NCBI GenBank assembly: GCA_903911085.1
Contig: CAIWCC010000250.1
Span: 1 to 64,000 of the forward strand
Origin: an uncultured Bacteroidales bacterium
GTDB taxonomy: Bacteria > Bacteroidota > Bacteroidia > Bacteroidales > Paludibacteraceae
Direction: 5' to 3'
DNA: 64,000 nucleotides
Position 1 is the stretch's first letter. Each line of letters starts with the position of its first letter. Position numbers and translations under genes: made by a program. A model generated the notes under the pieces. That model was not told the origin of the DNA, made no database searches, and was given only the letters and a program-made list of their open reading frames with translations. Below are positions 28,202-58,487 of this stretch, one piece after another.

Positions 28202-28267
28202 CAAAATAAAGGACATTAACCGAGAATCAATTTCGTTGAGGTTGAAAGATATTTCACTGTGGTTGAA
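28202..28267 (-). promoter_or_regulatory. Operator site 1 and -7 element (upstream of the Fn3 gene)
   Basis: Read on the plus strand, two units of TTTC-N6-GTTGAA start at 28231 and 28252 (21-bp period). The first TTTC lies 33 bases after the GATG that leads into GCAAAATAA. On the minus strand the -7 element is TTATTTTG, one base off TAnnTTTG. The same layout occurs at 40971-41036 and 58263-58328. It is likely an activator-binding promoter. Confidence 0.8.
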
Positions 28268-28302
28268 TTTAATTAAACAGCTATAAAATAAGCCATTAAA
28301 CG

Positions 28303-28344
28303 CATTAAAATCCTGCCAAAACAGTATTCGACAGGATTTTAATG
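28303..28344 (-). terminator. Probable terminator downstream of the GH29 gene
   Basis: A 13-bp perfect stem, CATTAAAATCCTG with its complement (28303-28315 and 28332-28344), has a 16-base loop. The T tract that follows in the minus direction is weak. Confidence 0.6.
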
Positions 28345-28398
28345 TGTGTTTAGAGTAAATAAATATCAGAAATTCGAATTAGTACTTCATATGAATTA

Positions 28399-29967: not shown

Positions 29968-30004
29968 TTAATAAATAATTTAAAGTAAATAAATAAGTGC
30001 GTAA

Positions 30005-33793: not shown

Positions 33794-33871
33794 AATGAAA
33801 AGTATACGAATGAATAACAATTTTGTAAAGAGTTAAATCCTAAAACAAATAAATGTTGTATTTTAAACGCA

Positions 33872-33891
33872 ACCCCGATAGCTATCGGGGT
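33872..33891. repeat. 20-bp perfect palindrome between the GH16 and esterase genes
   Basis: The segment centred on GATAGCTATC with four-C and four-G outer arms is perfectly self-complementary. It could form a hairpin about 50 bases after the GH16 stop codon. No T run follows, so it may be a processing or stability element, a weak terminator or a dispersed repeat. Confidence 0.6.
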
Positions 33892-33942
33892 GTAAAGTCA
33901 CTAGGAAGCAAATTAATGTTTGATTTACAATAATTTGTTTTT

Positions 33943-35460: not shown

Positions 35461-35784
35461 AAATTGTGATTCTAAGAAATTTCTGGTTGATTAATTTAAT
35501 TTCAAGTTGAACGATGCTGATTTTTACTAACTTATAAAAATATGATTATCGTGCTCACAATCAGTTAATTAATATACTTATGAACCTTTGAATTACGTAA
35601 AAAAAATAATGTTGATTGCCAAATGAAAAGGTATGTGTCGGGATATTTTGATTATAGCCATTAAATAATGCATAATTCACCATTAATTATATGCCGACTA
35701 ATCGATGGTGGTATGGGTGGATTTGAACAAAAAAGGACTTTACTTCTATTCGGGAAATAAAGTCCTTCCTCGAAATTAACAATA
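35461..35784. other. Intergenic region between GH16 and the beta-helix operon
   Basis: The stretch of 324 bases holds the terminator at 35728-35767 and otherwise AT-rich DNA without coding similarity. No TAnnTTTG element is found on the minus strand, so the promoter of the GH16 gene is not identified. Confidence 0.45.
35728..35767 (-). terminator. Terminator of the beta-helix operon
   Basis: A stem of GGACTTTA/TAAAGTCC (35735-35742 with 35758-35765) and a 15-base loop are followed in the minus direction by a run of T residues. It lies just after the stop codon at 35785. Confidence 0.85.
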
Positions 35785-37785
35785 CTACAACGCTACTTTT
35801 TGAACAAAAGCACCTTTTTCAGTATTCGCTTTTATGATATAAATACCCGATTGTAAGTGAATTTTCTGACCTGCAACTGCTTGTATGGATTGAATCAATT
35901 TGCCCGAAACAGAAAAAACCTGTATTGCGGTAGTAATTTCTGAAATAATTCCATTAGCAGTGGGAGTTAAAATGTGTTGTGTGGTAGCAGCTTCGTTAAG
36001 CACTGTCGGAACATTTGTTACCGATACATTTAATGTCACTGGTGTGGCTGCATTGTAGAATGCATTTGCGGCTTGCGATGCTGTAATAGTAGTATTTCCG
36101 GTGGCAACCAAGGTCATATTGCTGCCAGTTACAGTAACAATATTTGGATCAGCAGGGGTATATACAAGCGGTGCACCATAAGTTGCATCGGAATTTGAAG
36201 TTGCAGTAAGTGTAGCATTTGAATTCAGCCCTGTAAGGGTTTGACTCCAGGTGATTACCGGTGTCAGTTTCACAAAATCATACGCCCCAGAAGCTCTTGG
36301 GGTTGCAAATGTATTTCCAGCTTTGTCTGTTGTCAATGCATCCAATGGGCTTGCAGGAACAGTTCCTTTTCCTGCAAGATATGAACCAAGATTTAACCTC
36401 CAATCGGATTGCGAAATAGCCGTCAAATCTGAACCTGAAGAGAATGATGCTGATGCACCGATTGTGTTATTTGCAGTTTTAAACTGCGGACCAGTTGTTG
36501 CCGTCGTGTTTGTTTTACTTAAATCAGTCAGGTTGCCTGTATTTGTCAAAGCTGTTCCAAAGTTCCCTCCCGGCCCAACATCCATCACATTATTTGAGTA
36601 TACAGTACCAACATTCTGGTTGGAACCTGAAGCGACGCTCACATTTGAGGTAACGCTTGTAGCAGATATAGTATTCTGATTATTCCAGAAAACATTGTTA
36701 TAGACATTATGGATAGCGAAATCAGGAGAATTTCCTCCAACATACAAAGCCAAACAGCCATTTTTTAGATTAGTTGATTTGTTGTTGGCAAAGGTGTTGT
36801 TAATCCAATTATTTGTAGTATTACTGCCTGAAAAAATAAGATTAGCTGCAATGCAAGCATTTGGCGTAGTTTTAAAAGTTGCATTTCCGTTAAATGTAAT
36901 TTCATTGTTATGAACTACACAATCGCTTATTGTTACCGTTGATTTTGTGCCTGCAGTATTAGACGCTCCTGCATTACTTATATTCAAGACCATTCCTCTT
37001 AAATAACTACATGCTGAGGAAGTAGCACCAGTGTAGTCAATTGTAACCTTATTATTTCGGAATACACATCCGCTAATAGAAACTGTGGTTGAAGTACTGG
37101 GCAAATTCACATCCAATATCGGGTATATTTTCAAATCAGTTGAACCCGAATTTGTCATTGTTATTGATACCGTGTTTTTATCAAAAAGTGAGTTTTTTAA
37201 AGTACCAACGTTTTTTATTATACATCCACCAATTTGAGCAGTTGCCGTACCCGGATAAGTCAAATTGCTACCCGTAAAAACACAATTCTGAATAGTTCCT
37301 CCAATTGGATTAACACAAGCACCTCCAGTGCCATTCGTTCTCGAAGACGTATGGGTAATGGTTAGCCCATCAAGCGTTGTAGAAGCTACCAATGTTACAG
37401 CTGAAACATTTAACGTTGCATAGGTACTTGAAAACACGGTCGGATATTTAAATTCCCAAGATTCAGTGATTCCATTTGCATCGTTGTCATTTGGCGTGCG
37501 AACAGTTAAAGTACCAGTGTTTGCAGGGTCGCAACTAAAATAATAGTTTTCTGCTTTCAATGTCCAGCTACCACCAGTTGTAATGGTGACACCTCCTTTG
37601 ATATAGATGTTATCAACACCCGCATTACCATTTGCCGCATTTTCAGCTTCAAGTAAAGTTTTATAGGCATTTTCCCAAGAGTCTCCTGCACCAGAAGCAC
37701 CTTTGGTCGTATCCACAAAATAATCGGATGCAGTAACTGCCATTGTCATTGTGATGCTAAGCATCAAAGTTAAAATTTTTTTCAT
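35785..37785 (-). CDS. Secreted right-handed beta-helix protein with EF-hand-like loop and T9SS domain
   Basis: This 666-residue protein has a signal peptide (1-20), a beta-helix module (about 21-510) with EF-hand-like loop DNDANGITESWE (100-111), an Ig-like beta domain (about 512-590) and a T9SS C-terminal domain (about 600-666, ending FVQKVAL). Asn-rich turns such as VFRNNK, VVHNNE and VFWNNQN mark the coils of a pectin-lyase-type fold. No polysaccharide-lyase active site is evident, so binding or a new enzymatic role is equally possible. It is the last of three tandem paralogues, starting 10 bases after its neighbour, with a terminator downstream. Confidence 0.8.
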   Translation of the reverse strand: MKKILTLMLSITMTMAVTASDYFVDTTKGASGAGDSWENAYKTLLEAENAANGNAGVDNIYIKGGVTITTGGSWTLKAENYYFSCDPANTGTLTVRTPNDNDANGITESWEFKYPTVFSSTYATLNVSAVTLVASTTLDGLTITHTSSRTNGTGGACVNPIGGTIQNCVFTGSNLTYPGTATAQIGGCIIKNVGTLKNSLFDKNTVSITMTNSGSTDLKIYPILDVNLPSTSTTVSISGCVFRNNKVTIDYTGATSSACSYLRGMVLNISNAGASNTAGTKSTVTISDCVVHNNEITFNGNATFKTTPNACIAANLIFSGSNTTNNWINNTFANNKSTNLKNGCLALYVGGNSPDFAIHNVYNNVFWNNQNTISATSVTSNVSVASGSNQNVGTVYSNNVMDVGPGGNFGTALTNTGNLTDLSKTNTTATTGPQFKTANNTIGASASFSSGSDLTAISQSDWRLNLGSYLAGKGTVPASPLDALTTDKAGNTFATPRASGAYDFVKLTPVITWSQTLTGLNSNATLTATSNSDATYGAPLVYTPADPNIVTVTGSNMTLVATGNTTITASQAANAFYNAATPVTLNVSVTNVPTVLNEAATTQHILTPTANGIISEITTAIQVFSVSGKLIQSIQAVAGQKIHLQSGIYIIKANTEKGAFVQKVAL

Positions 37786-37794
37786 GATATTAAT

Positions 37795-39531
37795 TTATTT
37801 AATTATTATTTTTTGCGAATAGTTTCCAGTACTTGTTTGTATAAATATTAAATATAGTCCTGATTGAATTTTTATTTCTTCCCCTTGTTGTACTTTATTT
37901 TTAAAAATCAATTTTCCGATAGTATTAAATACAGAAATTGTTCCCTCAGTATTACAGCTTATTTTTTGAATTCCTGCATTAACAATGTCTGATTTGAGTC
38001 TGATATCAGAAAATCCAGAGGGTCCGTTGTAATCATAAGCACCAATCGATCTTGGAGTTGAAAAAGAATTTCCTAAAAAATCTTTGGTTCTAGTAGTTAA
38101 TGCAACTCCTTTAGCAATTAGATAAGAACCCAGATTGAGACCCCAATTGGCGTGTGCAATAGCAATTGAATCGGCGCTACCTGCTGTACGATTTACACCT
38201 TGGAAGATGGTAGGAGCTTTGAAATTCGGACCTTTTGCATCGGCATTTAGTGCATTTAAGTCGATTAAATTGTTTCCAATCCATCCATTAACCGTGTTTG
38301 CCGGTCCACCTGATGTGTATGCATTATTTATTACCCAACCAATATTTAAGCCTGTTGCAAAAGTACTGAGTGTCTGTAGATTTTTGTCGCCCAGTTCGTT
38401 TTTGTTGTTCCATAATACGTTGTTTATCACATTGGTAAATTTCGTAGCTGACGAATTGGCATAAAGTGTAGAACCACCCATATTGGTAAGCTTATTATTT
38501 GCAATAACACAGCCAACAATAGAGTCGGAAGCAACTGGTGGTGTTCCTACATATCCCATTTTTATCAATGCACCGTTATAGGCAGTTGCAGCCCACTGAT
38601 TACCGGTGATATTTGCCGAATTATTATCGTACAATGCTTCATTATTGTAAATCAACGTATTGTTCATAGTAACATCGGTACCGGTGGTAGCTGTCTTAAT
38701 CGAAATAACAGCACCTTGAACAGAATAAGTTGCTAAAGCAGAAGAAGCTGCACCCACAGCCTGAAATGTCACTTTGTTATTTCTGAAAACACAACCATCA
38801 ATTGTTCCTTTTTGTATCTGCACAATTGGTCCCAGAGTTGTTGTTGCTCCACTTGCAAAACCAACATAAACCGTATTTTTTTCTACCAGGCAATTTTTGA
38901 CTGCACCAGCTATTACGTCTATTATCACACCATTTAGCGATGTTGTAGGAATGGATGGGAACTGCACATTGCAATTGTGAATTGTTACATTTTCAAGAAT
39001 GGCATTCGACGACATCATTTTAATAACCTGATAAGTTTTAGTATTATCGTTTGGTCGAACAGTTCCAGTTTGTGTAATTGTGAAACCATTGAATGTATTT
39101 TTATAAGAGTTAGTAGTATTTGAAACCGCAACTGCCGAACTTCCGGTTGCATCGAATGTTGATGTGATTTTTGAAGGAAATTTAAACTCCCAAGGTTCGA
39201 TAATTCCGTTTCCGTCCTTATCTTCAAGTGGGCGTTGGGATATGTTAATTTCTATTCCCTCAAATCCGCCATAAAGATTATCGAGATCAGCTGAAATTTT
39301 TGAACCTGTAGGATAATTACCTCCTTTTACAAAAATATCATCAACTGTGACATCATAAGGAGCTGTTTTTGCTTTGGCTATTGCTCCAGTTAAACTTTTC
39401 AGTGCGGTACTCCAGCTCAAACCGTCGTTGTTGGTATCGTTACCATTGATATTATCCACGTAAAATGTGGTTGAATAAGCTGTTACATAACAAAAAAGTA
39501 GCAACATAAGCATTAATGTATTTTTTTTCAT
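37795..39531 (-). CDS. Secreted right-handed beta-helix protein with EF-hand-like loop and T9SS domain
   Basis: This 578-residue protein has a signal peptide (1-20), a beta-helix module (about 22-500) with EF-hand-like loop DKDGNGIIEPWE (104-115) and a T9SS C-terminal domain (about 510-578, ending YSQKIIIK). It follows the first paralogue by 44 bases and overlaps no gene. It is more diverged in the early coils than its neighbours (YGGFEGIEINISQRP in place of the YYFSC segment), a form shared with the beta-helix part of the PL8 fusion at 50424. Function is unknown; a substrate-binding or lyase-like role is inferred from fold and context. Confidence 0.8.
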   Translation of the reverse strand: MKKNTLMLMLLLFCYVTAYSTTFYVDNINGNDTNNDGLSWSTALKSLTGAIAKAKTAPYDVTVDDIFVKGGNYPTGSKISADLDNLYGGFEGIEINISQRPLEDKDGNGIIEPWEFKFPSKITSTFDATGSSAVAVSNTTNSYKNTFNGFTITQTGTVRPNDNTKTYQVIKMMSSNAILENVTIHNCNVQFPSIPTTSLNGVIIDVIAGAVKNCLVEKNTVYVGFASGATTTLGPIVQIQKGTIDGCVFRNNKVTFQAVGAASSALATYSVQGAVISIKTATTGTDVTMNNTLIYNNEALYDNNSANITGNQWAATAYNGALIKMGYVGTPPVASDSIVGCVIANNKLTNMGGSTLYANSSATKFTNVINNVLWNNKNELGDKNLQTLSTFATGLNIGWVINNAYTSGGPANTVNGWIGNNLIDLNALNADAKGPNFKAPTIFQGVNRTAGSADSIAIAHANWGLNLGSYLIAKGVALTTRTKDFLGNSFSTPRSIGAYDYNGPSGFSDIRLKSDIVNAGIQKISCNTEGTISVFNTIGKLIFKNKVQQGEEIKIQSGLYLIFIQTSTGNYSQKIIIK

Positions 39532-39575
39532 GATATAAATATTTAATTATTAGACATTTAAACTTCAGTTTTTTT

Positions 39576-40940
39576 TTATTGTGCCTTTTTATTGTTGATA
39601 TATGATGCGGGAAGTATATTCCAGTCTGCTTTTGCTGCGCTATCGTCTTCGGGTATTCCACAAAGTGTAGTTGGGCGTTTAAATGCCGGACCATTTTTGC
39701 CTGTATTCGATTTGCCTAAATCGGTAAGATTGTTTTCAAATATAAGTTCTGAACCCCAGTTGCCTGCCGTTTTTACGTCCATAATGTTGTTGTTAACAAC
39801 GGTGCCTTTATTTTGATTTGACGATGACGATAATGCTATTAGTTTTGTTACTTCGGTAGAACTCATCGTATGCATATTGTTCCAAAAAACATTATTTACA
39901 ACTTTATATTGCATTGGACCATCCGGTTTTCCGTTAGAAATAACAAGCAAAACCGCATTTCGTGTGTCTGTAAGTTTGTTCGAAGTAAAAGTACAGTTTT
40001 CGAACGAAACAAATGAATTACTAGCTGAATAATTCAAGCATCCTGCCACTGAAGCATTTTCAGCAATCGGACTTTTATCGTTGCCAAAATACACAAAATC
40101 ATTATTGTAAACTAAGCAGTTTTTTACAACAGCTTCGGCTTTGGGTGTGGAAGTACTTGCCGATACATTGATAGCCAATCCTCTGATATATTTGCAAGTA
40201 GAAGTTGTTGAACTGTTGTCGATTTTTATTTTATTGGCACGAACTACACAACCAGAAACTGTTGCCTTATTAGCATCGGTATTAAGTACCAAATCAATGA
40301 TTGGAGAAATTTTTGTATCGGCTGCTATCGATGCCGAAATGCTGTTCTTTTCGAATAAACAGTTGTTTACTGTTCCCTGCGACTTAACAATGCAACCTCC
40401 ATTGGCTATTATCATACCCGTATAAGTGAGATTACACTCCGAAAAAATACAGTTTTGAACTGTTCCGCCCACAGGTGCAATGATGGTAGACATATTGGCA
40501 TTACTGCGTTCTCCCTTGTGTTGAATGGTAAATCCATCGAACAATGCCGTTGCTGCATAAATGGCCGTATTGTTATAGTTGACCTTATAAATGGTTGGTG
40601 TTTTAAATTCCCATGCATCAATTATGCCATTTCCGTCATTGTCCTTCAATGCCCGTTGACTTGGTTTTGATTCAGTCCCTTCGAAACTTCCATAATAATT
40701 TTCATTACCCATTTTCAATACCCCATTGGCAGTAATGGTTCCACCTTTAATAAAAATATCATCAACCTGGGAATTGCTCGAAGCCAATGTTGTGGCTGTG
40801 GTAATTGATTTCACGGCTGTTTTCCATGAATTTCCGTTATTCGTATCTAACCCATTTGTTGGGTCAACATAAAATGTAGCTGCACTAGCAAAAAGAGAAA
40901 AAATAGCAAATACCATCAAGAATGTAAAATGTTTTTTCAT
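39576..40940 (-). CDS. Secreted right-handed beta-helix protein with EF-hand-like loop, no T9SS domain
   Basis: This is 454 residues from the ATG at 40940, where a signal peptide begins (MKKHFTFLMVFAIFSLFASA); the frame's earlier Met at 41009 lies in the operator region and is not credible. The module is a beta-helix with EF-hand-like loop DNDGNGIIDAWE (100-111). The protein stops at INNKKAQ, where the paralogues continue through a GAYEY-like segment into the T9SS sorting domain. It therefore lacks the usual export tail and may stay in the periplasm. It is the first gene of the three-gene operon behind operator site 2. Confidence 0.78.
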   Translation of the reverse strand: MKKHFTFLMVFAIFSLFASAATFYVDPTNGLDTNNGNSWKTAVKSITTATTLASSNSQVDDIFIKGGTITANGVLKMGNENYYGSFEGTESKPSQRALKDNDGNGIIDAWEFKTPTIYKVNYNNTAIYAATALFDGFTIQHKGERSNANMSTIIAPVGGTVQNCIFSECNLTYTGMIIANGGCIVKSQGTVNNCLFEKNSISASIAADTKISPIIDLVLNTDANKATVSGCVVRANKIKIDNSSTTSTCKYIRGLAINVSASTSTPKAEAVVKNCLVYNNDFVYFGNDKSPIAENASVAGCLNYSASNSFVSFENCTFTSNKLTDTRNAVLLVISNGKPDGPMQYKVVNNVFWNNMHTMSSTEVTKLIALSSSSNQNKGTVVNNNIMDVKTAGNWGSELIFENNLTDLGKSNTGKNGPAFKRPTTLCGIPEDDSAAKADWNILPASYINNKKAQ

Positions 40941-40970
40941 TTGGATTTTTTTTTTGAGATTAATTTGATG

Positions 40971-41036
40971 CAAAGTTACGCAATGAATGCTATGTTTATT
41001 TTCGTTCACGTTGAAAATAATTTCATTTAAGTTGAA
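40971..41036 (-). promoter_or_regulatory. Operator site 2 and -7 element (upstream of the beta-helix operon)
   Basis: Two units of TTTC-N6-GTTGAA (plus-strand reading) start at 41000 and 41021, a 21-bp period. CAAAGTTA at 40971-40978 is an exact minus-strand TAACTTTG -7 element. The first TTTC is 33 bases from the GATG before it, as at sites 1 and 3. This is the best-preserved copy. The site lies between the stop codon at 41049 and the start at 40940. Confidence 0.85.
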
Positions 41037-41048
41037 AACAGAATTATA

Positions 41049-42932: not shown

Positions 42933-42982
42933 ATTTTTTATATAATTGCAAGGTGACGATTATTAATTGTTTACGTTGGTTG

Positions 42983-44176: not shown

Positions 44177-44191
44177 AGGTATTGGCGTTTA

Positions 44192-47140: not shown

Positions 47141-47141
47141 C

Positions 47142-50100
47142 TTATTTTATTATTATCAATTGTTTTAAACTTTCTTTTGAATTATTGACACGAACAATAA
47201 ATACCCCTTTGTTTAAATCTCCTAAATTTAATACGTAAGGAGTTTGTATATTTGAAATCAATTTAATTAATTTACCTTCAGACGAATACAAATTTACGTT
47301 GACAACCTGAGTATCCTTCGATAAAATCATGAAATTATTTTTAATTTCGGTATTAGTAAGTTGTAATGATGTGAGTGGATGAATGGTATTCAAGTTTGTT
47401 GAAATACACTTTAATCCAATCGAATAGCTTTTACCATCAATAACTGCTAGTGAAATTTTTGTAGTATTACCAATATTTGTCAACGCAACTGATGGATTTG
47501 AGCCATCAAGTTTATACAAACCATTCAAAATTATTTCATAATTAAATGAAGCACTTGGCGTGTTAACAATAGTTGAGCTAAGTTCATTTGACTCAGTTGC
47601 ACTTGGTCTGTGCATATCCGGATCGCTCACAGATAATTTGAACGTAGTGCTGTCAATAACCTTGAACATAACCAAAGAGGGAGTATTTACCTGATTGACA
47701 ATAGAATCATTTAATGCAGTATTTTGATTGAAAATGGCATAAGCATATACTTTGTCATCGATTTTTTTCACTATATGCGCCACATTGTCCTGTCGAACAA
47801 TTTTTACAGGGCAAGTAGTTTCTGTTTTGTATTTTGCTTCCTGAGCATCTGTGCCATTAAAAATAGTGAAGTACGAATAACTTTGATTTTGGGGCGCGTA
47901 ACCATGATTGATGACTCCGCTATAAATGCTGTTTGCTGATGAAACATTAACTGAACCTGATTTTACAATGAACCTGCATCCCAGATTATCTTTGATGGTG
48001 GGTTTTGAAACGTTAGTCAAATTGGTGGAAAATGGAGTACCGTTTACAGAGATTGATTCACCTGTACCAAGTAATTGTTGAAACAAGGTTGTTTCGGTAC
48101 GATTGCTATTATCTCCGTTTCTGATATTGCTACCCATAGCAAGGATAACATTCCCACAATAAAAAACAGATTTATTGGCATAAAACGTTTTGTCGAAGGC
48201 AGTGTCATGAAGTTTGAATGAAAAGATAGAAGTGGAATCATTCAAGGTTACTCCACCTAAAAATGGATCTTCGGAGAAGTTTCGATACGGTGTACTTGAA
48301 GCGTATGTCAAAGCTGCACTGGAGAGATATTTTGTTGTTGCTCCCGGAATTCGACTCCAGTCCCAGTTTGCATTTGAATAATTATTATTTCTTTTATTCG
48401 TTAACAAATTAGTGTATTCCACCTGACCGTAGCTCATGTATCGTCCATAAAGATTATCGGTTGGAAGACCGGATTCATAATCCCAAACGTATTTATTAAA
48501 TCCTTTAACTGTTAATTGCATGGATGCATTCCGATTTATTATTAATCCGGAATATGGCAGGTATAAAGTGGTTTTGGGAGCACTTTCAGCCGGCACTTTC
48601 AACGATGTACCAAGAGCAGCTGCCTGTAAGCAAAGTTCAGCTTCTCCCATGGATTGTTTATAACATATACTGATACCGGATTTAGCAAAATCGTCTTTTA
48701 ATGGAGATATTGTTGGTTTCCACAATCGTCCGTAAGCTGCCAGTAAATCATTATCAGGCGTGGTTTTAGACATAATCAAATAAGCAAAAGCAGGCAATAT
48801 CTCGTCAAGATACTGAGTACCATTCGGAAACCTTCCACAAGCAGCCGTTGGCGAGTCATACAAACCACATGCAAGCCGATAAGTCAAACAGCAATTCTTC
48901 AACGTTGTATAGGTTGTTTCGGAAAGTTGGTAAGGCGTGTCATGCAACAGATAATAAACCCAACAAGCACTATAAAGTGCATCTGGGTAATATTGGCAGT
49001 AATAGGTCCCATTATGATGATAACCTGAAAAATCAGGTTTAAATGTTTCTGCAAATCCAGGCGCAATTCCAAAAGCATTGTTAAAGTAAGAAGTTAATGC
49101 TGTCAATGCTGCTACTCTTTTATTTGCATCGGTCTGCAACAAGGCAAAATCGAGTTTAGCAATACACATGGTTCGTATTTGATCGGCATTTTCGCCCACA
49201 ACAGTGAAGGGCATATTTACATTTCCCCACAAACCCAGCCAGTCGAGCGTGTTCAACTCACGTGCTAAACACGTGGCATCCAATGCGCCTCGCATTAGAA
49301 ATAACGAATTAAAATAACCAGCACTGTTAAGCTTTGAACCCATTAATCCACCTTGTGAACTTCCGTCAGCCCAGCCCTGGTCGTTAAACCAATCAATTTG
49401 ATTCAGCCAGCGCGTTTTGCTCAAAGCTGTATTATTCATACGATAATCATAAGCCAACGGAAGCATTGTTCCTTTCATTACATCCAGAAACTGCATCACA
49501 GATACGCCATCAATTGTAGCATCAGAATAATCAGGATAAAGTCCGGGACCTGTTACAACTCCGTCAGAACCAACTGATAAATTTAATTCACCGGTTGTAC
49601 TTTTTAACGCATTGGTTATTGTTGTTTTCACAGCATTTTTCCTATTCACAAATTCAGTGGCAGATGGGAATTTGTTAGCCGATAAATACCAGTTATCCAG
49701 TCGTTTGATAATAGTATCGCCCCATGAAACCTGAATTGGTGTAGCCGTTGGAACTGTTCCAAAGTTACCGTAAGACCGGATTCCTTTAAAATCAAATACT
49801 GATGAACTTTGTGTTATATTGCATTGTGCATCAGACATCCGATCCCATTTTACCGCTGTCTGAAATTCCATATAATCCAAGTAAATAATGCCGGTGCCAG
49901 TAGATGGAGCGGTTATGGTCATTGATGTCAGCGCTGTATTATCATGCTTCATATCCGCCACATAAGCAGCTGTTATACAACGCCATCCTTTGAAGTTCAA
50001 TCCAAAATTGATACTACATTTTTGCGTTCCTGAACTATTCATAAACGCAATGACGAGGTTTGAATTAATGGCTGCGAAATTATAAATCCAGAAATAAATT

Positions 50101-50357
50101 CCGCCTGATTTATTAGTAGAACCTGAGGCTAAGGATGTTGGAGCACTTACGCTAATTTTTGAGCCGGCATTCCACGTCCAACAGAGTGATTTGGTTCCTA
50201 ATTTATATTTAGCAACCGATGTTAACAAAGTCCCTGAACTAACCGACCAGTTTGATGGAACGATGCCATTCTCAAATGAATAAATCTGAGCCTGTAGTTT
50301 TGCTCCAGTATTTATTAGAACTATGAATAGGAAAAATTGAATTATTTTTTGTTTCAT
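47142..50357 (-). CDS. Chondroitin ABC lyase-like protein (PL8 type) with T9SS domain
   Basis: This 1071-residue protein has a signal peptide (1-24), a jelly-roll, catalytic toroid and beta-sandwich (to about 985) as in its neighbours, then a T9SS C-terminal domain (about 1000-1071, ending KQLIIIK). Catalytic motifs are intact: GYHHNGTYYCQYY, CGRFPNGT and VWDYESGLP. The conserved SDPDMHR near the end matches the TPDLNMTR segment of the Proteus enzyme. The T9SS tail predicts export to the cell surface or medium, where it would cut long chains. It is third in the operon driven from site 3. Confidence 0.88.
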   Translation of the reverse strand: MKQKIIQFFLFIVLINTGAKLQAQIYSFENGIVPSNWSVSSGTLLTSVAKYKLGTKSLCWTWNAGSKISVSAPTSLASGSTNKSGGIYFWIYNFAAINSNLVIAFMNSSGTQKCSINFGLNFKGWRCITAAYVADMKHDNTALTSMTITAPSTGTGIIYLDYMEFQTAVKWDRMSDAQCNITQSSSVFDFKGIRSYGNFGTVPTATPIQVSWGDTIIKRLDNWYLSANKFPSATEFVNRKNAVKTTITNALKSTTGELNLSVGSDGVVTGPGLYPDYSDATIDGVSVMQFLDVMKGTMLPLAYDYRMNNTALSKTRWLNQIDWFNDQGWADGSSQGGLMGSKLNSAGYFNSLFLMRGALDATCLARELNTLDWLGLWGNVNMPFTVVGENADQIRTMCIAKLDFALLQTDANKRVAALTALTSYFNNAFGIAPGFAETFKPDFSGYHHNGTYYCQYYPDALYSACWVYYLLHDTPYQLSETTYTTLKNCCLTYRLACGLYDSPTAACGRFPNGTQYLDEILPAFAYLIMSKTTPDNDLLAAYGRLWKPTISPLKDDFAKSGISICYKQSMGEAELCLQAAALGTSLKVPAESAPKTTLYLPYSGLIINRNASMQLTVKGFNKYVWDYESGLPTDNLYGRYMSYGQVEYTNLLTNKRNNNYSNANWDWSRIPGATTKYLSSAALTYASSTPYRNFSEDPFLGGVTLNDSTSIFSFKLHDTAFDKTFYANKSVFYCGNVILAMGSNIRNGDNSNRTETTLFQQLLGTGESISVNGTPFSTNLTNVSKPTIKDNLGCRFIVKSGSVNVSSANSIYSGVINHGYAPQNQSYSYFTIFNGTDAQEAKYKTETTCPVKIVRQDNVAHIVKKIDDKVYAYAIFNQNTALNDSIVNQVNTPSLVMFKVIDSTTFKLSVSDPDMHRPSATESNELSSTIVNTPSASFNYEIILNGLYKLDGSNPSVALTNIGNTTKISLAVIDGKSYSIGLKCISTNLNTIHPLTSLQLTNTEIKNNFMILSKDTQVVNVNLYSSEGKLIKLISNIQTPYVLNLGDLNKGVFIVRVNNSKESLKQLIIIK

Positions 50358-50423
50358 TTGAAATATGAAAAGTTCGTTCGTTTCAAAACAATTGACAGAT
50401 TGTTATATTGTTAAATGTGTGTG

Positions 50424-53400
50424 CTAAATTGTAACTTTATGTACACTCTGTTCATTTTCACCAATCAATTTGATAATGTAAATACCCGGATATAGATTTA
50501 TTTTGTTTCCAACTTTTGATATCGTTTTCTTGATTAGTAATCCGGAAACAGTATAAATTTCAACTTTAGAGTCTATTATAACAAGGATTCCATCAGGTTT
50601 AACGATAAAACCATTAAGTTCGTTCTCCGACAAATACTGAGATGTGGGTGAAAGTCCGGTTGGTGAAATATATTCATACGCTCCTACTGTACATGGATTA
50701 AGAAATGGATTTCCAGACAAATCATTGATAAAAGTCGTTGTAACTCCCTTTGCTATCTGATACGATGTTGAATTTGGTTTCCAGTTTGCTTTCTCTACAC
50801 TTCCATCATTAAGACAGCCTATTAATCCGGTTGGTCTAATAAAACCCGGGGCGTTTTGCACTCCAATATTTTCATTTCCCAAATCAAAAAAATTATTTGT
50901 GGTATATCCGGCAGTAGTATAAGTTCCGGTATTTCCGGCATTTGTAATATTATATCCAATCCTTCCTGACGAAATTGTTGCTGAAAGTGTAAGATTCTTA
51001 ACAACACCAGCACTTTGATTATTCCAAAATAAATTATTGAGTACTGTATGAACCAATGAACCTATTTTAGAAACCGTAAGACCAGCATTTGGCATACCGG
51101 TTACTTTGTTATTTGCTATTGTGCAATTGATAATGGAGTCGGACGACAAACTGGTTGAAAAGCCATTTGCACCGATAATGCAACCATAGGTCAAGGTGGC
51201 AGTAGATGTTCCACCACCTCCGGTATATGTGGCTTCATTATTGTAAATCAAACAATTACTAATTGTACTAATTGATGAAGGGTTGGTGCTTCCTGTTATA
51301 TTCATTATCATTCCTTTTCCATAATCGGTTAGTCCTGCCGTTGAAGAAGTAGCCTCAACCACCACATTATTGTTTCTAAACACACAACCATTTACTCTCA
51401 CCCCAGAAATAGCATCCATAATTGGAGAAAACTGTTTATTACTGGTACTTGTTATATTTACTGTGACTTTATTATTTTCAATTAAACAATTCTGAATCAA
51501 TCCCTGAGCTTTAAACAGAATACCACCAAGCGTGCTTGTACCTGTAGATAAATTAAGGTTGCAGTTTTTTACAATATTGTTTTGAAACACGCTGTTAGGG
51601 TCACAATTAACGGTAGTCATAGTATTTGTTGAATTTGTAGCCGAATGTGTAACGGTAAAGCCATTCAATGTTGATGAAGTTAAAGACAAAGCATTACCGT
51701 TAAAATTACTGCTAATAACCGTAGGGTACTTAAATTCCCAAGGTTCAATTATTCCATTTCCATCACTATCAATAATTGGACGCTCATTTATTGAAGTTTC
51801 TGTACCCTGAAATCCTCCGTAATAATTCTCCCCGCTTAAGTTAAGTGTTGACGTTGAATAGGCAATTGTACTTCCACCTTTGATAAAAATATTATTATAA
51901 CCCGGAAGGGAATTAGCTAAGGCAGTTGCAGCAGCAATACTTTTTACGGCTGTTTGCCAACTACAACCGTCATTTGCATCGTTACCAGATTGATAATCAA
52001 CATAAATAGGCTGACCCGAAACCAATGGTTTTAGATTAACTGTATACGTTTTTCCTTTACTGACTATTACTGATATTGTTGTATTTGAAGTACCATAGCT
52101 TAGTTTAATCCCTGAACTCAGTCCATTCGGCATGTATAATCCAGCAATAGTTATCTGATAGTTAAATACGGTGCCTGTATCAGTTTTTTGCGAATTTGAA
52201 AGTGCATCACTGCCGGCAGCAGTTTGGCGATGCATATCAGGTTCACTTAGCTTTAAGGAAATTGCTCCTTGAGCTAGATTTTTAATCATAACCAACGATG
52301 GTGCATTTACTTGTTGTATAAATGGATCATTTAAAGCTAAAGTATGATTAAAAATTGAATAAGCTATTATATTTTGCTCTTTTTGCATCACAATATGCGC
52401 CACCGAATCCTTTCTAACTATTGTTAAAGGTGTGGTTGTGACATTACTGTATTTAGTTACCTGAGCAGTGGTTGGTTTCAGCATCATATAATACTCGTAG
52501 GTTTTATTGGTTGGAGTTTTACCATGATTAATATACGAAGTGAATAAATTCCCGTTTTTCACCATATCAACCGTTCCATCTTTTACGATGTAACAATTTC
52601 CTATATTGTCATTAATTACCGGATTAACAAAGCCAGATTGACTTGTTGTACAGGCTGTATTATTAACTTTCATGGTTTCGCCTGACAGCATTAATTGCTG
52701 AAACAAAGTAGTCTCTGTCTGATTGGCTGTGGATATATTGCGTATGTCTGAGCCTAAACAAACCAAAGTATTTCCAAAACAAAAAACAGATTTATTGGCA
52801 TAAAATGATTTATCGAAACTATTGTCATGCAGTTTCATTGAGAACATAGAAGTAGAATCATTCAAAGCTATGCCACCCAAATAAGGGCTGTCAGAAAAAT
52901 TCCGTGAGGGTGTTGAGCTGTAATAAATTAAATCCACCGAATCCAAATGTTCAACGGTAGTACCCGGAATTCTGCTCCAGTCCCACGAAGAATCAGTAGC
53001 TGCGTCATTTTTTCTTCCGTCTGCCAACGAAGTATATTCTATATGTCCGTAATTTAAATATCGTCCGTACATATTATCATTTGGCGAAATGGATTCATAA
53101 TCCCAGATATATTTGCTGAAACCCTTAATCGATACGTGATTGACCGGATTACGACTTATTAATAGTCCTGCAAAGGGCAAATATAATTGTTTCCGCTGGC
53201 TTGGTTCTGCCGGTATGGCTAACGATGCCGCCTTTAAACAGAGTTCTGTTTCACCCAACGAAGCTTTATAGGTTATGTCAGTAGCAACGCGAGTCATATA
53301 TGAGTTGAGAACTGAATTGGTTGCAGGTTGCCACCATGCACCAAATGCAGCTAAAAGATCTGCATCCGGAGTGGGTTGCGAAAGTGCTAAGTAAGCAAAT

Positions 53401-54959
53401 GCGGGTACAAGCTGCTTTCCAAAATCAGTTCCAAGAGGAAACCGCCCATTTGCGGACATGGGCACATTATAATTTGCGGCTATTGTTCTATATGTCAACA
53501 AGCTATTTTTCAATTGTTGGTACACAGCATCCGACAAAGCATAAGGTGTATCGTGTAATAAATAAAAGCTCAGACACGCTTCATAAAGAGCATCCCCATA
53601 ATAAGCTCCCATATATACTCCACCATGAGCATAACCGGTAAAATCTGGTTTAAAGCAATCCAAATATCCTCCGGTAGGCAAAAAAGCCTGATTACAATAT
53701 GAACTCAAAGCACTCAATGCAGCTACTTTTAGTTGTGGATCGGTTTGCATTAATGCATAAATAAACTTGCCGATTAATACTGATCGCATATCATCAACAG
53801 CTCTTGGACCTCGTATAATAGGAATTAATACATCTCCAAAAAGGCTGTACCATTTTACTGTATTCATCTCCCGTTGTAATCGAACAGGATCTAATGCATT
53901 TCGCATCAAGAATATAGAATGTAAATATCCACATGTACGAGCAATATTCTGAAAATAAAGAGAACCAAGTCCACTTCCGCCAGCCCAACCCTGATCATAT
54001 AAATAATCATAAACATTGATAAGTGCATTTTTACTTGCAGCAGTTCCATTCATGCGATAATCGAGTGCTAAAGGAATTGGCAAATTAGAATTTACACCTT
54101 CAAAATCAGAAATGGGTTTGCCATCAATAATTGAAGGCGATTGACTTGAAAAAAGTCCACTTCCCAACATTGTTCCATCTGTCTGAGACGTTAAATTTAA
54201 GTTGGTGAAGTTTTTTTGAGAGTCACTTATCCATTTTGTAACTGAGTTTTTTCTGCTGTTGTAAACCGAAGAATTTTTATATGTGCCTTTACCCATCTCC
54301 CAATTTTCCAATCTAGTAGTAACAGAGTCAGCACCGGCTAGTTGAGCGATACTTGGACTTACTACCGGTGTAATATTTGTATTGTACGCCAAAAGAAAAT
54401 TACACATTAGTGAAGATTGAGACACAGTATATTGTGTGTCAGAAATGCGCGACCAATCAACAGATGACTGAAATTCAAGGTAATCAAAATAAATTGTTCC
54501 ACTTCCGGTGGAAGGAGCAGCCACTGACATGGTTGAAAGTTTCGACCTGTCATGTCCCATATCAGAAGCAAAAGTTGAAGTAAAACAGCGCCATCCCTGA
54601 AAATTGAGGTTGAAATTTTTGGTACATTTTTGAACTCCTGAACTGTTGTAAAAAGTAAATATCAAGGTTTGAGTAGAAGCTGTAGTATTATAAATCCAAA
54701 GCAAAATTCCACCACCACCGGCTGTTGAAGCTGTAGACAATCCAGTTGGATTTAAAGCACTAAAAACATCATTTGCTTTCCATTCCCATTTAAGCGAAGT
54801 TGTGCCAAGCTTATATTTTGATGTTGAGGATTGTAATTTACTCAGTGAAGCAGTCCAGTTTGTTGGCACTAAACCATCCTCGAAGGAATAAATTTGTGCT
54901 TTTATAGTGAATAAACCACTAATTATTGGGAATAGTAATATGAGAATTAATTTCTTCAT
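50424..54959 (-). CDS. Fusion of chondroitin ABC lyase-like (PL8 type) and beta-helix module, with T9SS domain
   Basis: This 1511-residue protein has a signal peptide (1-21), a PL8-type lyase (about 22-985) with GYAHGGVYMGAYYGDAL, NGRFPLG and IWDYES motifs, then a complete beta-helix module (about 1000-1430) with the EF-hand-like loop DSDGNGIIEPWE, and a T9SS C-terminal domain (ending HKVTI). The first catalytic-region histidine of the GYHH motif is Ala here, but the second, likely catalytic, is kept. The junction lies right after the beta-sandwich (KTYTVNLKPL), at the point where the paralogue at 44192 ends. This directly links the beta-helix module to chondroitin-type substrate breakdown. 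Confidence 0.88.
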   Translation of the reverse strand: MKKLILILLFPIISGLFTIKAQIYSFEDGLVPTNWTASLSKLQSSTSKYKLGTTSLKWEWKANDVFSALNPTGLSTASTAGGGGILLWIYNTTASTQTLIFTFYNSSGVQKCTKNFNLNFQGWRCFTSTFASDMGHDRSKLSTMSVAAPSTGSGTIYFDYLEFQSSVDWSRISDTQYTVSQSSLMCNFLLAYNTNITPVVSPSIAQLAGADSVTTRLENWEMGKGTYKNSSVYNSRKNSVTKWISDSQKNFTNLNLTSQTDGTMLGSGLFSSQSPSIIDGKPISDFEGVNSNLPIPLALDYRMNGTAASKNALINVYDYLYDQGWAGGSGLGSLYFQNIARTCGYLHSIFLMRNALDPVRLQREMNTVKWYSLFGDVLIPIIRGPRAVDDMRSVLIGKFIYALMQTDPQLKVAALSALSSYCNQAFLPTGGYLDCFKPDFTGYAHGGVYMGAYYGDALYEACLSFYLLHDTPYALSDAVYQQLKNSLLTYRTIAANYNVPMSANGRFPLGTDFGKQLVPAFAYLALSQPTPDADLLAAFGAWWQPATNSVLNSYMTRVATDITYKASLGETELCLKAASLAIPAEPSQRKQLYLPFAGLLISRNPVNHVSIKGFSKYIWDYESISPNDNMYGRYLNYGHIEYTSLADGRKNDAATDSSWDWSRIPGTTVEHLDSVDLIYYSSTPSRNFSDSPYLGGIALNDSTSMFSMKLHDNSFDKSFYANKSVFCFGNTLVCLGSDIRNISTANQTETTLFQQLMLSGETMKVNNTACTTSQSGFVNPVINDNIGNCYIVKDGTVDMVKNGNLFTSYINHGKTPTNKTYEYYMMLKPTTAQVTKYSNVTTTPLTIVRKDSVAHIVMQKEQNIIAYSIFNHTLALNDPFIQQVNAPSLVMIKNLAQGAISLKLSEPDMHRQTAAGSDALSNSQKTDTGTVFNYQITIAGLYMPNGLSSGIKLSYGTSNTTISVIVSKGKTYTVNLKPLVSGQPIYVDYQSGNDANDGCSWQTAVKSIAAATALANSLPGYNNIFIKGGSTIAYSTSTLNLSGENYYGGFQGTETSINERPIIDSDGNGIIEPWEFKYPTVISSNFNGNALSLTSSTLNGFTVTHSATNSTNTMTTVNCDPNSVFQNNIVKNCNLNLSTGTSTLGGILFKAQGLIQNCLIENNKVTVNITSTSNKQFSPIMDAISGVRVNGCVFRNNNVVVEATSSTAGLTDYGKGMIMNITGSTNPSSISTISNCLIYNNEATYTGGGGTSTATLTYGCIIGANGFSTSLSSDSIINCTIANNKVTGMPNAGLTVSKIGSLVHTVLNNLFWNNQSAGVVKNLTLSATISSGRIGYNITNAGNTGTYTTAGYTTNNFFDLGNENIGVQNAPGFIRPTGLIGCLNDGSVEKANWKPNSTSYQIAKGVTTTFINDLSGNPFLNPCTVGAYEYISPTGLSPTSQYLSENELNGFIVKPDGILVIIDSKVEIYTVSGLLIKKTISKVGNKINLYPGIYIIKLIGENEQSVHKVTI

Positions 54960-54976
54960 TTTAAAATTTAATATGT

Positions 54977-57900
54977 TTATTTTACTAATATTTTTTGATT
55001 CAATACATCAGACGAATTGTTAATGGAAACAATAAAAATTCCATTCTTAAATCCATTAATATCTAAAGAATAAGGTGTGGATACATCGTGTAATGATTTC
55101 GCTATTTTACCATCCAGTGAATTTACAGTTATATTTACATTTTTATTGTCTTTTGATGTAATTATGTAATTATTTATCGTGCCACTTCCTGACATCTGTA
55201 AGCTCTTGTTTGAGTCTAAAGAATCTACTCCTGTTGATACACTTTTTAATCCGATTGAGTATGATTTCCCATCAATCGCTGTTAGTGCCAATTTGGTTGT
55301 GTTTCCACTAATAGTAGCTGTAACAGCTGTGTTTGTGCTATCAAGCTTAAATAAACCGTTTAAAATAATTTCATAATTAAATGACGAAGTAGCTGTATTA
55401 ACTATAGCATCTGTTAATGCATCTGTATCTGTACCACTGGCTCTATGCATATCAGGGTCGCTTACTGACAATTGGAATGTTGAACTGTCAAACACTTTAA
55501 ACATTATCAAAGACGGCGTATTTACTTGTTTAATCCACGAATCGTTCATTTGCAATGTTGAATTGAAAATAGCGTAACCCCACACATTCTCATCTGTTTT
55601 TCGGACAATATGCGCCATATTATCTTGTCGAAGAATACTAACTGGGCAAGTAGCCGAATTACTGTATTTTGCTTCCTGTATACTGTTGCTTTGAAGCAAC
55701 ATATAATAAGTATAAGTCTGATTTGTTGGTGCATAACCATGGTTTATAACCGCATTGTAAATGCCGTTTGCATTGGATACATCCACAGTACCTGTTCTAA
55801 CAATAAACCGATTGCCAATATTATCCTGAATTATTGGTTGAGTCAAATTAGATTGATTTGTTGTCACATTATTTCCATTTACTTTTATGAATTCACCCGC
55901 ATTTACAACTTGCTGAAAAAGAGTTGTTTCTGTGCGTACTGCATTGTCATTGCAGTTAATATTACTGCCAACGCAAACCAATACATTTCCAAAATTGAAT
56001 ACAGACTTATTAGCATATAAAGATTGGTCAAACGCATTATCGTGTAATTTCATCGAAAAAAGTGACGTAGAATCATTTAAAGAAACACCTCCTAAAAAAG
56101 GATCATTTGAAAAATTACGATAAAGATTAAATGCAGTATAGGTAAGCTTTGATAATGGTAGATATTTAGTAGTTGTGCCCGGAATGCGATTCCAATCCCA
56201 GTTAATATTATCGTAATTATTATTACTTCTTCCAGTAATTAAATCTGTATATTCTAATTGTCCGTAACTCAGATATTTACCGTATGGATTATTGGTGGCA
56301 TCGCCTTCAAAATCCCAAATATATTTACTAAATCCTTTCAGCGAGATATGGTGGTTTGTGCTTCGATTAATCATTAATCCTGAATACGGTAAATACAAAG
56401 TGGTTTTTGGTGCATTCTCAGCGGTAACTTTTAATGAAGCTGCCTGAAGGCATAATTCTATTTCACCTAAGGAAGATTGATAACATATATCTGTGGCTGA
56501 ACGACTTATAAAATCTTTCAATGGAGAAACTGTTGGTTTCCACAAACGACTAAATGCTGCCATTAATTCATTGTCGGGTGTACTTTTTGACAATGCTAAG
56601 TATGCAAAAGCAGGAAGAATATCATCTAATCTGGTTGTTCCGGTTGGAAACCTACCAGAGCAGCTTACTGGCACATCATATTCAGAGGCAATTATCCGAA
56701 AGTTGAGCAAACAATTTTTCAGGATTGAATAGACCGAATCAGACAAAGCGTATGGTGTATCGTGCAACAAATAATAAACCCAACAGGCTGAATATAAAGC
56801 TTCAGGATAATACGCACTTAAGTAAATGCCTAAATGGTGATAACCCGAAAAATCGGGTTTAAATGTTTCGGCAAAACCAGGTGCTATCGAAAATGCATTA
56901 TCAAAATATCCTTTCACAGCCGTTAATGCTGCAACACGCTTATTTGCATCGGGTTGCAACAATGCATAATCTAATTTGGCAATACACATCGATCTAATTT
57001 GATCGGCATTTTCGCCAGGAACTAAAAAAGGCATATTTGCATTTCCCCAAAGTCCAGCCCAGTTTAAATTGTTTAATTCTCTGTCTAAACGTGTTACACC
57101 CAATTCATTCCGCATCATAAATAACGAATGAAAATATCCTGCGCTTCGAAGTTTTTCAAATCTTAGTGTTCCAAGAGCACTTCCATCAGCCCAACCTTGA
57201 TCAAAAAACCAATCAATCTGATTTAACCAGCGAGTTTTGCTTAATGCTGTTTTATTTAGTCTGTAATCGAAGGCTAAAGGCAACATTGAACCGGTTTCGA
57301 CATTGCTAAATTTCCGTATGGTTATTCCATCAATATTTTCATCTGCATAATCGGGATATAGTCCAACTCCGGTAACTGTTCCATCAGTTCCAACAGAAAG
57401 ATTCAAATCGCCAGTATTATGAGTCAGTGCGTAATTTATTTGGCCATTCAATCCACTTTTTCTGCTAATTGATTCCGATGCTAATGGATATTTATTGGTT
57501 GATACATACCAGTTATCGAGTCTTTTAATAATTGTATCAGCAGCTGCAATTTGAGTGGTAGTTGCCGTTGGAACCACACCAAAGTTGCCATTTTTACGAA
57601 CCGCCCAATAGTCCACCAATGTTAAACTGTTTGAAGTTCCCAAGGAGTATTGTGCATCGGACATTCTATCCCACATTACAGACGTAATAAACTCAATATC
57701 ATCAAAATAAATTGTGCCAATGCCTGTAGTCGGCGCCTGAACAGTCATATGAGTTAAAGCCGATTTATCGTGTTTTAAGTCTGCTACAAAGGCTGTGGTG
57801 ATGCATCTCCAACCTTTAAAATTTAGGTTGAAATCCAAATGGCATTTTACTTGATTTGAACTATTGAGAAACGAAAAAATGAGTGTAGAAGTGCTTGGAG

Positions 57901-58174
57901 TTGTATTATATATCCAAAAATATATACCGCCCGAACTATTTGTTGAAGCTGTTGATAAACCAGCTGGGGTGCTGACCGTTACTTTCGAACCGGCATTCCA
58001 CGTCCAACACAACGATTTAGTTCCGAGTTTATATTTAATTGTAGAAGACTGCAATGTACCCAACGTAGTTGACCAGTTTGTTGGCACCAAACCATCCTCG
58101 AATGAATAAATTTGAGCTTTTAATGAAATTGAACTGACAATTATTGAGAATAAAAATAGTACGAGTTTTTTCAT
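54977..58174 (-). CDS. Chondroitin ABC lyase-like protein (PL8 type) with T9SS domain, first gene of the lyase operon
   Basis: This 1065-residue protein has a signal peptide (1-20), an N-terminal jelly-roll (22-165), an alpha/alpha toroid (about 190-580), a beta-sandwich (about 590-985) and a T9SS domain (about 1000-1065, ending NQKILVK). Candidate catalytic residues are H446/H447 in GYHH, Y456 in AYYPEAL, R508 in SGRFPTG and E623 in IWDFEG. ETTLFQQ and INHGYAP match conserved beta-sandwich segments of chondroitin ABC lyases. It leads a six-gene run (to 41049) with gaps of 1 to 66 bases, all behind operator site 3. Confidence 0.89.
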   Translation of the reverse strand: MKKLVLFLFSIIVSSISLKAQIYSFEDGLVPTNWSTTLGTLQSSTIKYKLGTKSLCWTWNAGSKVTVSTPAGLSTASTNSSGGIYFWIYNTTPSTSTLIFSFLNSSNQVKCHLDFNLNFKGWRCITTAFVADLKHDKSALTHMTVQAPTTGIGTIYFDDIEFITSVMWDRMSDAQYSLGTSNSLTLVDYWAVRKNGNFGVVPTATTTQIAAADTIIKRLDNWYVSTNKYPLASESISRKSGLNGQINYALTHNTGDLNLSVGTDGTVTGVGLYPDYADENIDGITIRKFSNVETGSMLPLAFDYRLNKTALSKTRWLNQIDWFFDQGWADGSALGTLRFEKLRSAGYFHSLFMMRNELGVTRLDRELNNLNWAGLWGNANMPFLVPGENADQIRSMCIAKLDYALLQPDANKRVAALTAVKGYFDNAFSIAPGFAETFKPDFSGYHHLGIYLSAYYPEALYSACWVYYLLHDTPYALSDSVYSILKNCLLNFRIIASEYDVPVSCSGRFPTGTTRLDDILPAFAYLALSKSTPDNELMAAFSRLWKPTVSPLKDFISRSATDICYQSSLGEIELCLQAASLKVTAENAPKTTLYLPYSGLMINRSTNHHISLKGFSKYIWDFEGDATNNPYGKYLSYGQLEYTDLITGRSNNNYDNINWDWNRIPGTTTKYLPLSKLTYTAFNLYRNFSNDPFLGGVSLNDSTSLFSMKLHDNAFDQSLYANKSVFNFGNVLVCVGSNINCNDNAVRTETTLFQQVVNAGEFIKVNGNNVTTNQSNLTQPIIQDNIGNRFIVRTGTVDVSNANGIYNAVINHGYAPTNQTYTYYMLLQSNSIQEAKYSNSATCPVSILRQDNMAHIVRKTDENVWGYAIFNSTLQMNDSWIKQVNTPSLIMFKVFDSSTFQLSVSDPDMHRASGTDTDALTDAIVNTATSSFNYEIILNGLFKLDSTNTAVTATISGNTTKLALTAIDGKSYSIGLKSVSTGVDSLDSNKSLQMSGSGTINNYIITSKDNKNVNITVNSLDGKIAKSLHDVSTPYSLDINGFKNGIFIVSINNSSDVLNQKILVK

Positions 58175-58487
58175 TTAATTGTGATTTTTCTTTTAACACA
58201 CTTTTAAGAGTCTATATTACTTGAGTTTCTAAAGATTCTTATTTGTGATTAAATTGGATATGCAAAAATAGTTATGTTACTTCACAATTAATTTCGTTCT
58301 GGTTTAAAATAGTTTTATTCTCGTCTAATTTTGAATTAAATAGTAGGTTCTACCACTTTTTGTGTGGGTTGATATTTTAAAGCCAAATTACGGCTATTTT
58401 TATTTTTTTGGTCAGTGTTAAATCACACCTATACGATTCAAGTCGGAATCAATTATACTTTATTTCTTAAGAGTTGAAATTTTGAAA
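58175..58487. other. Intergenic region with the lyase-operon promoter
   Basis: These 313 bases contain operator site 3 (58263-58328) and otherwise AT-rich DNA without coding similarity. No clear terminator for the heparinase II gene was found, so read-through into the lyase operon is possible. Confidence 0.5.
58263..58328 (-). promoter_or_regulatory. Operator site 3 and -7 element (upstream of the lyase operon)
   Basis: CAAAAATA at 58263-58270 is an exact minus-strand TATTTTTG. The direct repeat starts at 58292, again 33 bases from the preceding TATG, with units TTTC-N6-GTTTAA and TTTT-N6-GTCTAA at a 21-bp period. The second unit is weaker than at sites 1 and 2. The -7 element ends about 90 bases upstream of the start codon at 58174. 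Confidence 0.75.

Follow-up and report, generated by a model that had tools for sequence, protein, structure and literature searches.

Hybrid two-component system (HTCS) regulators of polysaccharide utilisation have been described for Bacteroides thetaiotaomicron, where 16 HTCS motifs were reported as direct repeats averaging 21 bp apart, an arrangement two helical turns long that suits two AraC-type domains on one face of the DNA (PMC3878776). The HTCS_Hya regulon (BT3334) for chondroitin sulfate and hyaluronan contains an HTCS with AraC-type output, PL8 lyases, GH88, SusCD and sulfatases (PMC6994673), and the response of a P-BT3332 (susC promoter) reporter to chondroitin sulfate was found to require BT3334 (PMC9845299). 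The HTCS_Hep regulon (BT4663) for heparin and heparan sulfate was reported to contain direct repeats upstream of two operons and of a distant lyase gene (PMC3878776). The promoters of the primary sigma factor contain TAnnTTTG at -7 and TTTG near -33 (PMC7366714). The window analysed here is a stretch of 64,000 nucleotides (positions 1 to 64,000 of contig CAIWCC010000250.1, assembly GCA_903911085.1) from an uncultured Bacteroidales bacterium of the Paludibacteraceae. It was found to contain a tandem operator followed, at a fixed distance, by a -7 element in front of three transcription units, and a fourth copy was found further along this contig, beyond the right edge of the window. A sequence-only reading of the window had predicted a regulon of three operons; the regulon was supported and the promoter count was corrected to four, the extra promoter lying before a SusCD operon. 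The sites very probably serve as operators through which a single HTCS activates a polysaccharide utilisation locus of the glycosaminoglycan type, an HTCS regulon of a class already described for B. thetaiotaomicron in the text of PMC3878776.

The likeness of the locus to the HTCS_Hya regulon lies in the gene content and in the direct repeats about 21 bp apart as given in the text of PMC3878776. Unlike the HTCS_Hya locus, the present locus is larger and contains four PL8-type paralogues, the three genes of unit 2, heparinase-like genes and a sulfatase-like protein lacking an active-site segment. The likeness to the HTCS_Hep regulon lies in the sensor, the best solved-structure relative of which was 4a2l (566.9 bits), presumably the heparin-sensing BT4663. 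Searches of the open-licence literature, through listings and passages, returned no glycosaminoglycan HTCS operator closer than those of PMC3878776, and a fixed distance between operator and -7 element is not stated in the text passages of that paper (figures and supplements aside).

Tandem operators and the -7 element

The operator consensus searched, TTTC-N6-GTTGAA-N5-TTTC-N6-GTTGAA, contained 20 specified positions. Exact matches were found on the minus strand at site 1 (28231..28268; pattern span 28231-28267) and site 2 (41000..41037; pattern span 41000-41036), and these were the only matches in the window at up to 3 mismatches, shuffled sequences predicting 0.03. The earlier claim of a TTTC-N6-GTTGAA tandem at three sites held exactly for these two and failed in part at site 3 (58292..58329, minus strand), where 4 of the 20 consensus positions were found to deviate (GTTTAA, TTTT and GTCTAA); site 3 appears to be a weak copy of the operator, as its conservation supports. 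Site 4 (84513-84550), to the right of the window, contained 2 mismatches to the operator-only pattern. The four operators of the source genome were found to consist of TTTCGTTNNNGTTKAAA-N4-TTTYAHYNNNGTYKAWW, that is, two 17-bp units with a 21-bp period, so that each candidate HTCS operator contains a direct repeat with about 21 bp between its half-sites, degenerate at site 3. The araI1-I2 site of AraC in Escherichia coli likewise contains 17-bp half-sites and a 4-bp spacer, forming a 21-bp direct repeat next to the promoter; AraC is a soluble sugar sensor working at a sigma-70 promoter, whereas the regulator here is an HTCS in the membrane and the promoter is of the Bacteroidota -7/-33 type. 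The earlier suggestion that such repeats suit AraC-type output domains agrees with the published HTCS direct repeats (PMC3878776).

A -7 element of the TAnnTTTG type, read on the minus strand, was found at 28202..28209 for site 1 (CAAAATAA on the plus strand, 5 of the 6 specified bases), at 40971..40978 for site 2 (CAAAGTTA, 6 of 6) and at 58263..58270 for site 3 (CAAAAATA, 6 of 6), each 29 bp from its operator. Site 4 was found to contain CAAAAGTA at the same 29-bp offset, the -7 element being absent from the pattern by which this site was found. Read as CAAAnnTA, the reverse of TAnnTTTG, the element has its C 29 bp ahead of the first TTTC at all four sites of the source genome. The 33-base spacing noted in the sequence-only reading was exact at sites 1, 2 and 3, its informative part being CAAAnnTA at 29 bp; the leading GATG or TATG of the segment at these sites is missing at site 4. 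The TAnnTTTG expected at -7 of a sigma-ABfr promoter was present throughout, the one mismatch already noted at site 1 being seen again on re-reading. No TTTG was found by eye near -33 at the four source-genome sites, in keeping with the earlier statement that a good -33 element is missing, and this position was found to be occupied by the operator edge GAAA, as an activator model expects.

The spacing was evaluated in 19 sites, the three sites of the window being left out (one from the source genome, three from G182, six from G192, two from G152, one from G194 and two each from G377, G272 and G468). At least 5 of the 6 bases of CAAAnnTA were found at 29 or 30 bp in 17 of the 19 sites, the remaining two containing 4 of 6 at 29 bp (G377) and 5 of 6 at 31 bp (G468). 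Since intergenic regions of the same contigs gave a background of 1.39% at each offset, the binomial probability for 17 of 19 was 4.9e-25, a value that is only a guide because the sites share descent. The spacing, the loss of which in relatives had been named as a sign against the regulon, was thus conserved at 29 or 30 bp, and in several genomes the sequence linking operator and -7 element (21-bp spacers and flanks) was found to vary from site to site, the operator and the -7 element being kept.

Specificity of the pattern

The genome searched comprised 6.25 Mb in 269 contigs (97.89% complete). The operator-only search at up to 3 mismatches returned site 1, site 2, site 4 and one 3-mismatch match on contig C201. 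The reversed operator-only pattern returned 5 and 8 matches on the two strands, and 3-mismatch matches alone were therefore given no weight. A composite pattern of operator and -7 element was written from the four source-genome sites; at up to 3 mismatches it returned five matches genome-wide, namely the four sites (0, 0, 1 and 1 mismatches; site 4 at 84484-84540) and one match on contig C99 (3 mismatches), the reversed control returning one. At up to 2 mismatches only the four sites were found in the 6.25 Mb, all of them in the locus, and the many unrelated genome-wide matches that would have spoken against the regulon were not seen.

A matrix built from six sites of other genomes was found to rank the four own sites at the top of the contig (33.7, 29.3, 27.4 and 23.9; next 11.8), the maxima in 20 random contigs being 9.4-23.1. 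A leave-one-genome-out matrix, with which 18 contigs were scanned at a cut-off of 13, gave 33.5, 33.2, 31.7 and 21.9 on the own contig (site 1, 33.5; site 2, 31.7; site 3, 21.9; next 13.6). It recovered 19 of 19 training sites and added sites before the GH88 gene adjoining the HTCS gene in G377 and G272 and one before an HTCS copy of G468; the further matches above 13 were the 13.6 on the own contig and two that merely repeat true sites on the opposite strand (13.7 and 15.2).

The HTCS gene

The HTCS gene was likewise found on this contig beyond the right edge of the window (84536-88591, minus strand), and by Pfam it encodes a single chain containing periplasmic Reg_prop propeller repeats and Y_Y_Y followed by HisKA, HATPase, receiver and AraC-type helix-turn-helix domains. 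The receiver was found, in the translation, to contain the SHIP form of the S/CHIP motif, and the gene sits with susC and susD. The genome contained 46 HTH_18 matches, 42 of them over the cut-off, and this HTCS was the only one on the contig. Site 4 lies between the HTCS gene and the GH88 gene and overlaps the HTCS stop codon. The sequence-only reading had guessed at an HTCS with AraC-type output, and the guess was borne out by this single HTCS gene of the locus, its 3' end overlapping site 4, and by the tendency of operator and HTCS group to co-occur across genomes, with exceptions. A contig search with the HTCS as query returned distant relatives alone, the nearly full-length ones at 24-30% identity. 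The overlap of operator and HTCS stop codon was also observed in G182, and the site was found to start 7 bp (G377) and 4 bp (G272) after the end of the HTCS match.

Conservation and co-occurrence in related genomes

In 200 genomes of the family, the closest HTCS relatives were found in G182 and G192 (62-63% identity, partial) followed by G152 and G194 (42%), the next full-length relatives among the matches listed being at most 33% identical. The operator-only search in 48 genomes of the genus returned three matches in G182, six in G192, four in the own genome and one in G184, the control returning two. Of the own matches, three belonged to the locus, site 3 having diverged too far to be returned, and the fourth fell within a long open frame on contig C228. 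The G184 match fell within a long open frame as well. G182 and G192 contained operator matches with 0-2 mismatches, and those of G194 and G152 were returned with 3 mismatches or by matrix. The composite search in the same 48 genomes returned matches in nine, at up to 2 mismatches in the own genome, G182 and G192 only; G194 fits among the other six, and 3-mismatch matches were also found in G200, G160, G190, G144 and G188. The sites of G152 came from a matrix and motif scan of its HTCS contig, and nothing reaching the matrix cut-off of 13 was found in the stretch of G194:C134 examined.

The composite search in 393 genomes of the order returned the own genome and G468, G377 and G272, which belong to two other families (3 mismatches), the reversed control returning none. 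The HTCS group was found at 50% identity in G377 and G272 and at 39% in G468, each on the contig of the operator, and a second G468 copy (40%) was found on another contig. With two HTCS candidates scored per genome, the HTCS group (at least 984 bits) was found in 8 of the 393 genomes, including all four with a composite match, the next group reaching at most 701 bits. With the own genome excluded, the group was present in 3 of 3 composite-match genomes and in 7 of 392 overall (hypergeometric 3.5e-6). The operator was found before the GH88 gene adjoining the HTCS 3' end in the own genome, G182, G377 and G272, and before a GH88 gene near the HTCS in G192; it was thus retained before orthologous genes where an orthologous regulator is present, four HTCS-group genomes being negative.

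The operator-only search at 3 mismatches in the 393 genomes was discarded as unspecific (31 matches in 28 genomes versus 10 reversed), and outside the genus the claims therefore rely on the composite pattern or the matrices. Among 21 operator-like loci inspected, those of G377 and G272 contained the -7 element and L215 was too near the locus end; in contrast, none of the other 18, which are chance-like operator matches, contained it. Eighteen of the 19 loci other than those of G377 and G272 lay in long open frames (at least 272 codons). In 22 second-tier HTCS loci of about 6-7 kb, a GH88 neighbour was found in one (L173) and PL8 in none.

Further features were observed in the HTCS group. The output domains of the own genome, G377, G272, G182 and G192 were found to be one residue short just ahead of their second recognition helix, where they read GM-SPTYF or GF-TP; the other eight aligned members contain this residue (GFNTPSYF and similar). 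A weaker operator (22.1) was found before the HTCS gene itself at G468:C8:29903 (within L204), which suggests autoregulation in G468. Heparinase-like genes and no PL8 match were found in the stretch examined of G271, G232 and G518, and a PL8-like gene in G221. In G232 and G518, which belong to one genus, a search requiring lag-21 repeats returned a different but related 21-bp tandem (TnTCA-N6-ATTGAA kind) before a heparinase-like gene, at L196 (G232:C62:140133) and L197 (G518:C6:29484); it looks as though operator and glycan specificity had changed in parallel.

Genes of the four units

All four units are transcribed leftward, and their extents as operons, estimated from the intergenic gaps, are putative. 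Unit 1 was found to contain an Fn3-containing gene (23009..28147, minus strand), the start of which is probably 28147 and not the upstream ATG at 28216; the start was moved since a message beginning near the -7 element would not include 28216. The mechanically assigned starts 28216 and 41009 both lie upstream of -7 elements and are probably wrong. Unit 2 was found to contain three genes on the minus strand, at 39576..40940 (ATG start 40940), 37795..39531 (44-bp gap to the first gene) and 35785..37785, followed by a gap of 324 bp and then GH16, CBM35 and GH29 genes, and was counted as three genes. The beta-helix label given to this group in the sequence-only reading found no confirmation, the protein of the first gene, the sole unit 2 protein scanned, giving no Pfam match.

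Unit 3, on the minus strand, was found to comprise six genes between 58174 and 41049, of which four are PL8-type. The lyase genes 54977..58174 (Lyase_N, Lyase_catalyt, Lyase_8 and Lyase_8_C) and 50424..54959 were assigned by Pfam, and the paralogues 47142..50357 and 44192..47140 by similarity only. They are followed by a sulfatase-like protein of 397 aa (42983..44176; Pfam Sulfatase) and a heparinase II/III-like protein (41049..42932). The C-terminal region of the 50424-54959 lyase was found by BLAST to resemble the unit 2 proteins, one G192 protein matching both. The S-x-P-S-R active-site segment of its G192 and G152 relatives is missing from the sulfatase-like protein, as is a later stretch of the alignment; this protein is probably catalytically dead.

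Unit 4 was found to contain fifteen genes on the minus strand from 84435 down to 62722 with gaps of at most 79 bp, running into the window from the right at 62722..64000. Its GH88 gene (83233-84435), to the right of the window, is followed by SusC-like and then SusD-like genes, so named from their sequence, with gaps of 17 bp each. The tail of the directon contained a GH39 gene (60818..62413, minus strand), separated from unit 4 by a gap of 308 bp upstream, and a heparinase II-like gene (58488..60812, minus strand). Four adjacent paralogues of a small lyase-like protein were observed at 68741-72031 (L005:5741-9031), the one scanned matching Pfam PF14099. With PL8 lyases, GH88, SusCD, heparinase-like enzymes and a sulfatase that looks inactive, the locus is predicted from its gene content to be of the glycosaminoglycan type.

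Proposed mechanism and rival explanations

The HTCS encoded at 84536-88591 would sense lyase products in the periplasm and become phosphorylated, and its AraC-type output domains would then bind head-to-tail to the two 17-bp repeats, the 21-bp period equalling two helical turns. The promoter-proximal edge of the operator lies 21-22 bp upstream of TAnnTTTG, about where the -33 element is expected, and the bound dimer would therefore hold the polymerase at a promoter without an evident -33. The four responding units would be the Fn3 gene, the unit 2 genes, the PL8 operon and the GH88-SusCD operon, with this HTCS as their only regulator. An unsaturated lyase product is the probable ligand: 4a2l, the best solved relative of the sensor, is presumably the heparin-sensing BT4663, while the PL8-type genes suggest chondroitin or hyaluronan, and the locus may be used for more than one glycosaminoglycan.

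Several observations weigh against one HTCS acting through these operators, in addition to the shared descent of the 19 test sites. Six of these sites were first seen with a pattern containing the -7 element, and 11 of 13 remain without them; a few further new sites were first printed by an expression containing the -7 element and were recovered by operator-only searches. The score of site 3 with the six-site matrix (23.9) barely exceeds the best random maximum. No operator was found upstream of the source-genome HTCS gene, none reaching 13 was found in the 28-40 kb examined of G271, G232, G518 and G221 (four of the eight HTCS-group holders in the order), and none was found within the 20 kb examined around the G468 C11 copy of the HTCS. 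The HTCS-GH88 gaps of G152 (L123:15781) and G194 (L016:3884) contained sub-threshold candidates only (10.0 and 8.3 with the six-site matrix), which are degenerate and operator-like with a CAAA-type -7 element (5 of 6 at 29 bp). The identity of the DNA-binding domain, tried as a discriminator of operator holders, was rejected, the four operator-less members reaching 61-63% identity to the domain of the source genome versus 62-65% for G152, G194 and G468_C8, which contain the operator. Unlike the present locus, the heparinase-type loci of G271, G232 and G518 do not contain its type of operator.

The operators might instead be bound by another AraC-family protein or by an HTCS encoded elsewhere, the local HTCS controlling something else; the many HTH_18 matches of the genome and the operator-less members of the HTCS group speak for such a regulator. 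It is nevertheless unlikely, since a search with nothing but the composite operator pattern arrived at genomes from other families that hold the same HTCS group and since the operators abut or overlap the HTCS gene in the own genome, G182, G377 and G272. Repression by the HTCS through the same operators would have a precedent in the repressing HTCS BT2391, mentioned in PMC11253607. On its way to the promoter the operator stops 21-22 bp short of the -7 element and covers neither this element nor the start, and the SHIP motif of the receiver is tied to phosphorylation-dependent binding in the text of that paper, which makes repression highly improbable.

The repeats were also considered as sites of an extracytoplasmic function (ECF) sigma factor or of another polymerase-associated element. 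At 38 bp, the tandem exceeds the length of a sigma -35 element. ECF sigma/anti-sigma pairs are one of three types of regulator proposed to control such loci (PMC3878776), and against them stand the -7 element, which is of the primary sigma type (PMC7366714), and the small open reading frames of the region. Between 22000 and 89500 only two ATG-started frames of 50-200 aa not largely overlapped by longer ones were found, both to the left of the genes and outside the locus proper, and an ECF origin of the repeats has very little probability. The similarity of the promoters could finally be a leftover of duplication together with paralogous genes, without present function, as the duplicated PL8-type and unit 2 genes of the locus would allow; with spacers and flanks diverging in several genomes while operator and -7 element stay, this is hardly credible. 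ECF control, repression and promoter duplication were rejected on these points, and activation by the local HTCS is retained.

Wider rule and significance

A general rule may be tentatively proposed, with a probability somewhat below even, by which HTCS dimers on 21-bp tandems of any half-site letters replace the Bacteroidota -33 element at a nearly constant 29-30 bp from the -7 element. In 19 other HTCS loci of the source genome, a lag-21 self-match of at least 11 of 17 was found before TAnnTTTG in 6 of 75 windows versus 0-3 at each of 15 other lags, and the related tandem of G232 and G518 also favours the rule. The cases are few and post hoc, and the signal is broad in position: lag 21 peaks at spacers of 18-32 bp and rises again at 57-71 bp, and lag 22 gives 5-6 windows at 42-50 bp. 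The rule is a lead and not a result. If true, it would allow HTCS-controlled promoters to be read from the sequence alone.

By the reading preferred here, one sensor is tied, from sequence alone, to four promoters of a large glycosaminoglycan-type locus, the promoter geometry is conserved beyond the family, and the predicted operator is directly testable. The same geometry could help to assign the dozens of AraC-type output domains of this genome (42 over the cut-off) to their promoters.

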